59,245 nt of DNA, from the NCBI GenBank assembly GCA_947594855.1, contig CANQEL010000014.1, forward strand, positions 1 to 59,245, in the 5' to 3' direction. Below, piece after piece: positions 54,518-58,326 of the stretch (positions are counted from its first letter, which is position 1; each line of letters opens with the position of its first letter). Position numbers and translations under genes: made by a program. A model generated the notes under the pieces. The model made no database searches and was not told the origin of the DNA. It worked only from the letters and a program-made list of their open reading frames with translations. The stretch is from an uncultured Lachnospiraceae bacterium. Its GTDB lineage: Bacteria; Bacillota; Clostridia; Lachnospirales; Lachnospiraceae.

Positions 54518-55282
54518 TTATAATACTTTTGACAGGAAATCCACCAGTCTTGGCTCTTTAGGATTACCAAAAAATTCTTCAGGACTTCCTTCCTCTTTAA
54601 TCTTTCCTTCATCAATAAACAAAACTCTGTTGGCTACCTCTCTTGCAAATCCCATTTCATGGGTAACAACCACCATTGTCATTCCTTCTTTTGCAAGTTC
54701 TCTCATAAGTTCAAGCACTTCACCGACCATTTCAGGATCAAGCGCCGAAGTAGGTTCGTCAAACAGAATCACATCCGGGTTCATTGCAAGCGACCGTACA
54801 ATTGCTACTCTCTGTTTCTGTCCTCCCGAAAGTGTTGAAGGATACACATCCGCTTTGTCCTCAAGACCGATACGCTTAAGCAGCTTCATTGCCTTTTCTC
54901 TTTCCTCTTCTTTAATCTGTCTCTTCGTGCGTTTTTTCCCTTTATCCTTCTTCATATCTTTACATGCAACATAAACCGGAGCCAGCATAATATTTTCCAG
55001 AACCGTCTTATTGTTGAACAGATTAAAGTGCTGGAATACCATTCCTATGTGCCGGCGGTGTATATTTATATCCACGCTCATATCCGCAATATCCACACCA
55101 TTAAAAATAATACTTCCGCCCGTTGGGTCCTCCATACAGTTGAGACACCTTAAAAATGTACTTTTTCCGGAACCTGACGGCCCTATGACCGCTACTATAT
55201 CGCCTTTATTGATTGTAATGCTGATTCCGTTAAGAACCTTAACATCACCGAAGCTTTTCTCAAGATTAATTACGTCTATCAC
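54518..55282 (-). CDS. Polar amino acid ABC transporter ATP-binding protein (GlnQ-like)
   Basis: A 254-residue importer ATPase. It shows Walker [14 protein letters not shown]-loop VFQHFNLF, signature [16 protein letters not shown], Walker [13 protein letters not shown] and the switch histidine in [12 protein letters not shown] lysine-rich insertion (about 105-130) precedes the signature. It overlaps the permease by 17 nt. GlnQ-type transporters import glutamine or other polar amino acids; the precise substrate is not readable. Confidence 0.92.
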
Positions 55283-55976
55283 TTTTCTTAAGGCTCCTTT
55301 CCATCAATTTAATAAGCAGTGAAATCAACAGTACAAGCACTATATAAATAAGCGCCATTACAAGATAAGGCACCATAAACTCATAACTGTTGCTTCCGAT
55401 TAAATTAAATGCAACATAGAGGTCTGCTGCTCCCACAAAGCTTACTACAGATGTCTCCTTAATCAGTGTAATAAACTCATTACCAAGTGTAGGAAGAATA
55501 TTTTTTACAGCCTGGGGAATTACTATTTTACACATTGTAACTCCAAAGCCCAGCCCTACACTGCGTCCGGCTTCCATCTGTCCCGGGTCTACCGACTGGA
55601 TACCGCTTCTCATTATCTCAGATATGTAAGCCCCGCTGTTTAACCCAAACACAATCATGGATACTCTCACTCCGGTAAGATGAACCCCTATAATAGGAAG
55701 CATTACATAATAAAATACCAAAAGCTGTACTACCATCGGAGTCCCACGAAACAAAGCCACATAAAAGCTGCAGAATCCGTTCAGTATCCTCGGCAGAAGA
55801 TGGTATTTTGGAAATACACGTACCGTTGCAATAAGCGTTCCTATTATGATACCTATAATAAGTCCGCTTACAGCAATCAGAACAGTGTTTTTCAGACCTT
55901 CAGCTACCTTCACATAGCCATTCTGGTTCACAAATATATTAATAAAATTATTTATTTTAAGTCCAAAATTTCCCAT
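55266..55976 (-). CDS. Polar amino acid ABC transporter permease (HisM/GlnP type)
   Basis: A 236-residue membrane permease with about five helices and the coupling-helix motif [19 protein letters not shown]. It forms a homodimeric pore with the GlnQ-like ATPase. It lies between the binding protein (37-nt gap) and the ATPase (17-nt overlap). Confidence 0.92.
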
Positions 55977-56013: not shown

Positions 56014-56862
56014 TTACTGTACTGCATTAATTGATTCAGTAATAGCCTCAGCAGGCGCTGCATCAATAATTACATATTTTATATTATTATTAATCATATC
56101 CTGTACTGCAAGCGAACCATTGCGGTAAGGAACACACTTTGCAGGAAGCCCTGCGAATCCCCAATCTTCATCACCTTCTACATAAAACTGTCCTGTTGTT
56201 CCTGACTGGACTCCTATTGAATCACTATCAGTAAGTTTATTTAACAGTTCTTCAACCGAAGCAGCATCCGTACATTTATCAAACGTTGTATCCTCTCCGG
56301 GCACGATAAGCCTCTGAGAAGCCTTATAATACGGTTCGCTGAAAGTAACATACTCTTCTCTTTCTTCATTTACTGTAAGTCCTGCCATTGCAATATCACA
56401 CTTGTGCTGTCCTACTGAAAGGCATACGGCATCAAACTCCATATTCTGGATAACAAGCTCCATTCCAAGATCTTTGGCAAGCAGCGCCGCAATCTCCATA
56501 TCAATTCCGTAATAGCTGTCGCCCTGGGTATATTCAAAAGGCTCAAATGCTGCATTGGTGGCTACTACGAGCTGGTCTTTTGAAGTATCAAGCTCAGCAG
56601 AAGTTACTGCCTCAGGCTCACCGTCGCTGAAATACTTGTCACATACCTCTTCAAGCGTTCCATCTTCTTTAATTTTCTTTACAAAATCATTTACTTTCTC
56701 CAAAAGTTCCGGCTGGTCTTTGTCAATACCGAAAGCATAGTCCTCATCAGTAAGGTCAATGTCGATAACTTTTGCAGCTTTACTACCGCCGGAGCCTCCG
56801 CATGCTGTCATTGAAACAGCGCATACTGCCATCAGAATAACTGCGATTATTTTCTTTTTCAT
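56014..56862 (-). CDS. Polar amino acid ABC substrate-binding lipoprotein, apparently circularly permuted
   Basis: A 282-residue lipoprotein (signal 1-20, Cys21 in MTAC). Residues 31-78 (IDIDLTDEDYAFGIDKDQ and LEKVNDFVKKIKEDGTLEEV, ending CDKYF) are the segment that closes the C-terminus of ordinary family members. Residues 98-282 begin with the usual mature N-terminus (LVVATNAAFEPFEY, YYGIDMEIAALLAKDLG) and stop at IIDAAPAEAITESINAVQ, exactly where 31-78 would normally follow. A linker of about 19 residues (79-97) joins the pieces. The fold is therefore the normal two-lobed one with moved termini. Substrate unknown; the partner permease and ATPase are typical. Confidence 0.85.
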   Translation of the reverse strand: MKKKIIAVILMAVCAVSMTACGGSGGSKAAKVIDIDLTDEDYAFGIDKDQPELLEKVNDFVKKIKEDGTLEEVCDKYFSDGEPEAVTSAELDTSKDQLVVATNAAFEPFEYTQGDSYYGIDMEIAALLAKDLGMELVIQNMEFDAVCLSVGQHKCDIAMAGLTVNEEREEYVTFSEPYYKASQRLIVPGEDTTFDKCTDAASVEELLNKLTDSDSIGVQSGTTGQFYVEGDEDWGFAGLPAKCVPYRNGSLAVQDMINNNIKYVIIDAAPAEAITESINAVQ

Positions 56863-56950: not shown

Positions 56951-57757
56951 TTAAAACAAATATTGATATTTTCTTGTGCGGCTCATTATAATATCCCTTA
57001 CTCTTTCTTTTACATTTTTATCATAATACGGTTCTTCTTCTAACAGTTTTTCTACATCCTTTCTGTGAAAATTAAATTTTATATGGCAGCCGCACACCTG
57101 CTCAACTACATCTAACTGCTCGTCAAAATCCTGACATATCGTTTTTGCCTTTGCAGATTGTATCATTTCTTCTATATAACCGCCTATCGGATAATCCATT
57201 GTTGTATCTGATAAAAGTGCAGAGCCATTATCAAATACAGGGCAATACTGATATTTTCCTTTTTCATCCGTTAATACTGCGATATTATGCATATGCCTGT
57301 CTTCGTTAAGAAACAGAGTATCTATTGTCATTATCTTACTGAAATATACATCAAACTCATTAAGCCCTGTAATTCGCATTATATTACTAACCACAAACTC
57401 CACCCTGTCAGTATAATTTTCAATTTTATATACCGCCTTAGTCAGGCTTTCTCCATACATATTTTTGAACAACCGTTCAAGAGTAATCATTTTCCAGCCT
57501 TCAGGAAGAAAATTTCTGCTCACACAACCCAGATATGAATTGTTATTATAAACTATTTTTTCTGTTTCATAATCCACATATTCATCCTGCTTCATATCGC
57601 TGTAACCTAAAAGTTTTGATACTATATATTCTGTCAGTCCTTCATAACCCGTATAATCAGCTTTATACCATACATTACCTTTATTCCATTTCAGCTGGTT
57701 ACCTTTTGATGATTGCCTGTTGTTATTTTTTATGTCCGATTCAAATAATTCTACCAT
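56951..57757 (-). CDS. Short HipA-like/CtkA-like protein kinase
   Basis: A 268-residue HipA-fold kinase lacking the N-terminal about 100-residue subdomain of classical HipA (about 440 residues). It shows a nucleotide lysine in WYKADYTGYEG (Lys32), catalytic NEDRHMHN (Asp153, Asn158) and the metal motif VFDNGSALL (Asp176). Classical HipA phosphorylates glutamyl-tRNA synthetase; short relatives include HipT and Helicobacter CtkA. It starts 5 nt after the HTH protein and must be co-transcribed with it. Toxin activity is plausible but not shown; targets cannot be inferred. Confidence 0.78.
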   Translation of the reverse strand: MVELFESDIKNNNRQSSKGNQLKWNKGNVWYKADYTGYEGLTEYIVSKLLGYSDMKQDEYVDYETEKIVYNNNSYLGCVSRNFLPEGWKMITLERLFKNMYGESLTKAVYKIENYTDRVEFVVSNIMRITGLNEFDVYFSKIMTIDTLFLNEDRHMHNIAVLTDEKGKYQYCPVFDNGSALLSDTTMDYPIGGYIEEMIQSAKAKTICQDFDEQLDVVEQVCGCHIKFNFHRKDVEKLLEEEPYYDKNVKERVRDIIMSRTRKYQYLF

Positions 57758-57762
57758 GTAGA

Positions 57763-58305
57763 TTACCTCTCAATCTTAATCCAGTAATTATCCTCTGCCA
57801 TTCTTCCCTCCGTCTTTTCTATAATCATAAATGGATCATAAAACGGCAGGTCAAGCTCGCGTAACATCAGTTTCATTTTATCCCTTGTACGCGGAAAACA
57901 TCTTGACTCCAGAAACTCCTCATAGTCCTTAAATGTGGGATGTTCTTCTTTTCCAAATGCTCTGGATATATTATCATTTGTATAATTATATATTTTTATC
58001 CTACAGTTTCTTTCATCTACATCAATAATCGTACATACCCTGTTATCTTCCATATACCATAGTCTAAGCGGATATGTTCTGTCCGGTATACGCCATTCTT
58101 CTTCCATATAAGGATAATTACCAAGCAATCTGGTTAAAGTTACAATCGGACCGGTAATATCATTATTTCCCGCTTCCCAGCGTTCAACTGTTTTGTATGA
58201 TATATTAACAAATTCAGCAAATTCTTTCTGTGTCAGATTAAGTTTTTTTCTTATTATTTTAATATCTTTTCCCTTTAATTGTTTTGGCAGCGCATATTTA
58301 TACAT
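57763..58305 (-). CDS. HTH regulator fused to a HipA-N/HipS-like domain
   Basis: A 180-residue protein (ATG 58305, GGAG 8 nt upstream; GTG 58314 is an alternative). An XRE/HipB-like helix-turn-helix occupies about residues 10-65 (IIRKKLNLTQKEFAEFVNIS, YKTVERWEAG). The C-terminal 95-100 residues (LRLWYMEDNRVCTIIDVDE, then ENYWIKIER-like end) look like a small beta-rich domain of the kind found at the N-terminus of HipA or as separate HipS. With the short kinase downstream this resembles a HipBST-like system with the B and S parts fused. The promoter carries operator-like sites matching a HipB-type autorepressor. The domain assignment of the C-terminal half is tentative. Confidence 0.7.
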   Translation of the reverse strand: MYKYALPKQLKGKDIKIIRKKLNLTQKEFAEFVNISYKTVERWEAGNNDITGPIVTLTRLLGNYPYMEEEWRIPDRTYPLRLWYMEDNRVCTIIDVDERNCRIKIYNYTNDNISRAFGKEEHPTFKDYEEFLESRCFPRTRDKMKLMLRELDLPFYDPFMIIEKTEGRMAEDNYWIKIER

Positions 58306-58326
58306 AATTCTCACTCCGGTTCCTTA

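Follow-up and report, generated by a model that had tools for sequence, protein, structure and literature searches.

A predicted amino acid-binding lipoprotein of Lachnospiraceae with circularly permuted family 3 segments

The window analysed here, a stretch of 59,245 nucleotides comprising contig CANQEL010000014.1 of an uncultured Lachnospiraceae bacterium (GCA_947594855.1), carries at positions 56,014 to 56,862 of its minus strand an open reading frame (ORF) for which sequence comparison confirms a lipoprotein of the SBP_bac_3 family in circularly permuted order. We consider that the gene probably encodes the lipid-anchored, circularly permuted substrate-binding protein (SBP) of a one-permease amino acid importer, and we put the probability of this reading at about 0.9. 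The initial annotation had proposed such a permutation, and complementary matches in swapped order, both to the PDB entry AncQR and to a profile of ordinary relatives, bear it out.

We divide the chain of family 3 solute-binding proteins, which we take to be the class named cluster F, into three segments: S1 is the first part up to hinge 1, S2 is the rest of the small lobe, and S3 consists of hinge 2 and the last helices. An ordinary chain has the order S1-S2-S3 with both chain ends in the large lobe. The order in the window protein is S3-S1-S2, and it was therefore classed as a permuted variant and not as an ordinary member of SBP_bac_3. The features of the gene are as follows.

56014–56862, minus strand: gene of the predicted circularly permuted amino acid-binding lipoprotein, 282 residues, with the ATG at 56862 and the stop at 56014–56016
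56803–56862, minus strand: signal peptide, residues 1–20, with the lipobox ending before Cys21, read from the sequence; helix 3–16 in the AlphaFold model
56629–56778, minus strand: segment S3, residues 29–78, equivalent to hinge strand 2 and the two final helices of an ordinary family 3 protein (profile positions 168–219; 4zv1 residues 182–232)
56584–56628, minus strand: linker, residues 79–93, leading from the ordinary C-terminus to the ordinary N-terminus
56296–56583, minus strand: segment S1, residues 94–189, the usual N-terminal portion as far as hinge strand 1 (profile match and S1 segment profile)
56029–56295, minus strand: segment S2, residues 190–278, the remainder of the small lobe (profile match ending at position 168)

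The window protein scored 112.9 bits against SBP_bac_3 (PF00497; gathering cut-off 26.4), with two separate stretches matched. A phmmer search of the PDB aligned window residues 97–274 with residues 11–174 of AncQR (4zv1) and window residues 29–79 with residues 182–232, in inverted order. Similarly, a profile of 219 positions built from 33 ordinary relatives only matched window residues 94–278 at positions 2–168 (i-Evalue 5.8e-54, 178.8 bits) and window residues 27–78 at positions 168–219 (i-Evalue 1.6e-12, 43.3 bits), so that the two pieces meet at position 168 in swapped order and every ordinary segment is present once. As controls, the protein read backwards gave no more than 0.3 bits and none of 1000 shuffles exceeded 8.9 bits. 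The whole-protein match had an E-value of 1.9e-66; the chain outside the signal peptide and linker is homologous to family 3 proteins. Residues 31–78 had been assigned in the initial annotation to the usual C-terminal part, and the protein was said to stop where this moved segment would normally begin; both statements were right to within a few residues. The longer match ends at residue 278, the end of S2, four residues before the end of the protein. A second equivalent segment later in the protein, a possibility raised at the same time, was sought by a six-frame search of the window with a C-terminal-segment profile, which returned one match, the N-terminal one. The median identities of the window protein to the 33 ordinary relatives were 48, 41 and 38% over the three segments, and those of a protein of a second rotation (type II, L039) were 63, 58 and 52%; the three segments are about equally similar to ordinary relatives, and therefore none looks foreign. 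The GlnH equivalog (NF007029, cut-off 303) gave 108.1 bits, a shortfall to which the permutation itself may contribute.

Relatives in the fetched loci fell into three cyclic orders: S1-S2-S3 (ordinary), S3-S1-S2 (type I, as in the window) and S2-S3-S1 (type II). Among 238 distinct S1-bearing ORFs, 140 were type I, 58 type II and 33 ordinary, the remainder being two copies of one triple tandem and five ORFs with one segment below threshold; the loci were fetched by similarity, and these counts are therefore not frequencies. The search for further members suggested at the outset thus uncovered a widespread clade. Type II examples include L039:2015-2809, L038 and L146-L157. One candidate of another kind, L035, which appeared to carry the C-terminal segment at both ends, was rejected as its N-terminal match proved to be linker; L035 is ordinary.

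A degraded binding protein, in which S3 would be a separate additional domain or a decoy copy, the true C-terminal part having been lost or lying elsewhere, would account for the fact that ordinary family profiles match the window protein only partly as one run (residues 98–261). We consider this very improbable, given that profile positions 2–168 and 168–219 fit together, that 140 relatives share the order, that the window holds a single S3 match and that a confident single fold is predicted; a degraded or truncated gene or an extra domain was rejected on the complementary pieces and the co-ordered relatives. An AlphaFold2 model based on 30 type I sequences had a mean predicted local distance difference test score (pLDDT) of 89.4 and a predicted template modelling score (pTM) of 0.80, with pLDDT block means of 89–98 over residues 31–80, the S3 region. 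In the structure comparison, 45 of the 50 matches listed started at model residue 90 or later, as expected because sequential aligners here meet a permuted chain. The type II model (mean pLDDT 91.9, pTM 0.83) placed its residues 24–111 on domain 2 of TmArgBP (6gpm; 84 aligned, 45% identity, root-mean-square deviation (rmsd) 2.2) and its residues 169–258 on domain 1 (6gpc; 90 aligned, 44% identity, rmsd 1.5), in reversed order.

The window is one contig of a 33-contig draft genome, which leaves room in principle for a misassembly, a frameshift or a sequencing artefact. Such an error is scarcely conceivable here, as 80 named loci (the best 80 of 523 relatives in the named-genome scan) match at 62–96% identity in the best segment, every one of them covering 255 or more of the 282 residues, and as permuted genes also occur in one-contig genomes, namely G035 and G191 for type I and G265 for type II. 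With independent assemblies carrying the permuted gene, the assembly artefact was rejected.

The positions of the cuts were consistent across each rotation. In profile coordinates, the first piece starts at 167 and the second ends at 169 in the 140 type I ORFs (medians; ranges 132–171 and 102–171), and the pieces start at 98 and end at 97 in the 58 type II ORFs (medians; ranges 87–101 and 41–110). By our own criterion the pieces are complementary in 134 of 140 type I and 55 of 58 type II ORFs. The former termini are joined by linkers of 15–22 residues in type I (median 15, n=140) and 15–26 in type II; in the window linker Gly81 and Val86 are invariant among the 30 type I rows of alignment A1, and Pro83, Ser88 and Asp92 occur in at least 90% of them. 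By eye, there is a hint of shared ancestry between the type I and type II linkers. According to PMC7400645, the small domain of GlnBP comprises residues 90–180, with hinges at 85–89 and 181–185. By alignment, the type I cut falls near GlnBP 168–169 and the type II cut near 95–98, both inside the small domain; an ordinary chain runs large-small-large through the lobes and both permuted chains run small-large-small. As both cuts lie in the small lobe, either rotation would transfer the N-terminal anchor and the chain ends from the large lobe to the small one, in agreement with the original suggestion that permutation alters where the lipid anchor sits on the lobes. The lipobox noted ahead of the moved segment is likewise genuine by conservation, with Cys21 kept in 30 of 30 A1 rows; among ORFs of up to 440 residues, the lipobox pattern was present in 136 of the 139 with type I order, 37 of the 41 with type II order and 29 of the 33 with ordinary order.

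Several observations weigh against this account. When the open frame is taken with 11 extra upstream residues, the first piece extends to positions 149–219 and overlaps the second by 19 positions, which we read as the alignment running into the signal peptide. Overlapping pieces were seen in six type I rows, the open frame of the window included, and in three type II rows, and single rows depart from the medians, with the second end as low as 102 in type I and 41 in type II; we take the row ending at 41 to be a contig-end fragment. Both structural models were built from alignments of permuted proteins only, and the shift of the anchor is derived from mapping. Finally, apart from the tandem protein L269 described below, none of the proteins found was an intermediate carrying a single extra segment.

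Both rotations are widespread. Within the family of the window genome, type I was found in at least 32 of 299 genomes, each with a co-linear match of nearly full length (at 45% identity or more in 31 of them), and type II in more, at least 61 of the 299, at the latter identity. Type I occurred in 24 of 392 genomes of the order and in 36 of 391 of the class, the latter including ten weaker matches at 37–43% identity, all of which proved to be type I once fetched; the family, order and class sets overlap. In the phylum set, a strict limit left 2 of the 299 genomes with type II; one, at 35% identity, does not belong to the class. These counts were read by hand from matches within E-value limits, and part of the matched genes were fetched and classified. 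No genome among the 299 of the family had both types in the matches listed (6.5 expected; P 0.0004 without correction for kinship), and kinship alone might explain this lack of overlap. Named holders of type I include Blautia (strain Blautia sp. Marseille-P3201T), Dorea, Faecalicatena, Lacrimispora, Mediterraneibacter, Eubacterium ruminantium and two Acetivibrio species, Acetivibrio mesophilus among them.

Phylogenetic trees were built on segments rearranged into one common order. The rows of the SBP trees were thinned by similarity and then chosen (124, 121, 64 and 69 rows), with the long branches L040, L033 and L188_Cb left out of the 121- and 64-row trees and L040 and L033 out of the 69-row tree; the permease trees had 76 and 64 chosen rows, the latter without L063 and L175. 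Groups were named only after the first tree had been inspected. The main type I group formed one clade, with support of 96, 100 and 98 in the Shimodaira–Hasegawa-like approximate likelihood ratio test (SH-aLRT) in the trees of 124, 64 and 69 rows, respectively. In the 124-row tree, 47 of 53 type II rows formed another clade (SH-aLRT 94), and the remaining six (L172, L184, L041, L151, L155 and L162) were placed elsewhere, with weak support. Nested among ordinary proteins was a minor type I group (L034, L059, L255-L263). This placement, and also the permease tree, suggests a separate origin of the minor group, for which the tests were marginal: in the approximately unbiased (AU) test, a single clade of all type I rows gave p 0.508, the constrained tree being slightly better, with 2 minor rows among 32, and p 0.043 with 9 minor rows among 20, and a single clade of all type I permeases gave p 0.056 (19 permeases). 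The test did not reject a single clade for the minor group alone (p 0.764) or for the type II permeases taken together (p 0.208). Type I may have arisen either once or twice. Three of the minor rows, L261-L263, have a quite different linker between the old ends and perhaps represent a further separate origin, although their grouping with the other minor rows in one clade was not rejected.

One gene, L088:6515-7354, has the order S2-S3-S1 (S2 by eye), belongs to another subfamily and lies near the type I gene of the same locus. It is sister, with support of 99, to an ordinary protein of the window's own genome (G000:C26:5457-6140), and a single origin of this gene together with 17 type II rows was rejected (p 0.00015). 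These results indicate at least three apparent rearrangements, those of type I, type II and the L088 gene, unless ordinary forms were regained.

Tandem arrangements of the binding domain were also found. L036 has three ordinary binding domains ahead of a permease, and L269:2588-6001 (G012) encodes in one chain S2-S3-S1-S2-S3-S1-permease-ATPase, an all-in-one importer whose two S2 parts, below threshold, were read by eye. The register of this tandem is offset in the way expected if the outer ends had been lost. Since such proteins exist today, the permuted forms may have arisen when the binding domain was duplicated in tandem and the outer ends were subsequently lost.

The genes downstream of the window SBP gene are those of an ATP-binding cassette (ABC) importer of polar amino acids, with the permease above the cut-off of its model and the ATPase identified by ABC_tran.

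55266–55976, minus strand: polar amino acid-type permease, separated by 37 bases from the SBP gene upstream (BPD_transp_1 81.2 bits; HEQRo_perm_3TM 73.6 bits, cut-off 42.2)
54518–55282, minus strand: GlnQ-like ATPase subunit, overlapping the permease gene (ABC_tran 129.6 bits; GlnQ the best NCBIfam model at 299.9 bits, below its cut-off of 379)

Beside this operon, at 56951–58314 on the minus strand, two ORFs resemble by eye an XRE-type regulator and a HipA-like kinase. A permease lies directly downstream in 133 of 140 type I ORFs, at a median gap of 26 bases (measured in 108 of an earlier 114 ORFs), and 16 of 58 type II ORFs have the binding domain fused in front of a permease in one chain (for example L158:1434-3014, L159:1411-2970 and L166:961-2463). 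A type I ordered binding domain also occurs, presumably as the outer sensor, in L040:1510-3654, a 715-residue protein kinase (PF00069, residues 62–333).

Window residues Arg168, Thr163, Phe106 and Phe143 align with Arg75, Thr70, Phe13 and Phe50 of GlnBP, which we take to be ligand contacts. All four are invariant in the 30 A1 rows, as is Asp267, assigned by motif. With these invariant positions and the downstream permease, the window protein is read as an ordinary α-amino acid binding lipoprotein whose tether has moved, and it would be expected to bind amino acids. By sequence, the cut in the chain lies within the small lobe, immediately ahead of the second hinge strand, and a linker of ~15 residues connects the former termini. 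The protein would fold into the ordinary two-lobed clamp, gripping the α-amino acid backbone between the lobes and passing the bound amino acid to the neighbouring permease and ATPase. Mechanically, the sole large change would be the relocation of the lipid anchor and of both chain ends to the small lobe, with the large lobe becoming one unbroken stretch of chain.

Whether this change matters to the bacterium can be argued both ways. The chances are about even that the permutation is real and functionally meaningless, a neutral by-product of tandem duplication that was fixed and inherited: binding positions and gene neighbourhood are as in ordinary systems, and few events are needed, since the main type I group is one clade and most type II rows another. 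Against neutrality stand the two different rotations that both shift the anchor to the small lobe, the indications of more than one origin and the lack of shared genomes, for which kinship alone might suffice. Selection for anchoring by the small lobe, which could leave the large lobe free or set the clamp's orientation on the permease, is plausible at somewhat shorter than even odds. The identical lobe change in both rotations and the fusion of the permease at the small-lobe end in type II speak for such selection, as does PMC4990184, which raises tethering as a possible cause for the permuted protein Tp0684. Lipobox-bearing ordinary relatives in the same bacterial groups speak against it, and cuts elsewhere may simply fail to fold. 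All three cyclic orders of one family coexist, as lipoproteins, as permease fusions and once, presumably, as a kinase sensor. We tentatively propose, as a possibility we would not yet favour, a recurrent lobe inversion in Clostridia, in which the fold was re-cut at two places and the outcome retained because small-lobe anchoring improves capture or permease docking.

The family 3 proteins GlnH, HisJ, ArtJ and TmArgBP and the domains of GlnPQ are homologous to the window protein in all three segments and have amino acid motif residues, a lipobox and permease and ATPase neighbours in common with the window system; the window protein differs in its rotated segments and in the small-lobe location of its anchor and chain ends. 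GlnPQ of Lactococcus (6h30), with the tandem SBD1-SBD2, contains an S3-to-S1 junction within one chain, and the type II profile therefore matches it in a single run (28–261 to 98–326); unlike type II, it consists of two complete ordinary domains without permutation. The OpuAC proteins of Bacillus subtilis and L. lactis reportedly differ by a half-swap; PMC2861598 makes no mention of a swap or permutation, so this is only a lead, and the ligand family of OpuAC differs from that of the window protein. A precedent is Tp0684 (TpMglB-2) of Treponema pallidum, presented in PMC4990184 as a natural circular permutation of a tethered binding protein, with a proposed 'cluster Bc' and relatives in treponemes and Gram-positives. 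Like the window protein, it is described there as a permuted, tethered SBP for which tethering is raised as a reason, but it has the Type I/cluster B glucose-binding fold, cut elsewhere, whereas the window protein belongs to another fold class. Its permuted part is given in that text as only 13% identical and possibly derived from another gene, in contrast to the about equal homology of all segments in the window protein. The window chain is set apart from the sugar-binding fold of cluster Bc by its homology to family 3, an assignment made without direct comparison with Tp0684. A natural permutation within family 3 was found neither in searches of the open-licence literature aimed at one nor, by sequence, among the PDB matches listed.

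We thus regard the permuted family 3 SBP as real, well supported and widespread, and we found no earlier report of it. Ordinary family models give partial matches for the permuted proteins, which hides the rearrangement. Natural circular permutations are often inferred from distant pairs. Here, the segments of the type II protein L039 are 71–73% identical to their best ordinary relatives and the two rotations together supplied about 200 distinct permuted proteins, so that both the way in which a permutation is made and what the position of the tether does to an ABC importer are directly testable, in what appears to be a gut bacterium's amino acid catcher with its usual parts in rotated order and its anchor on the opposite lobe.
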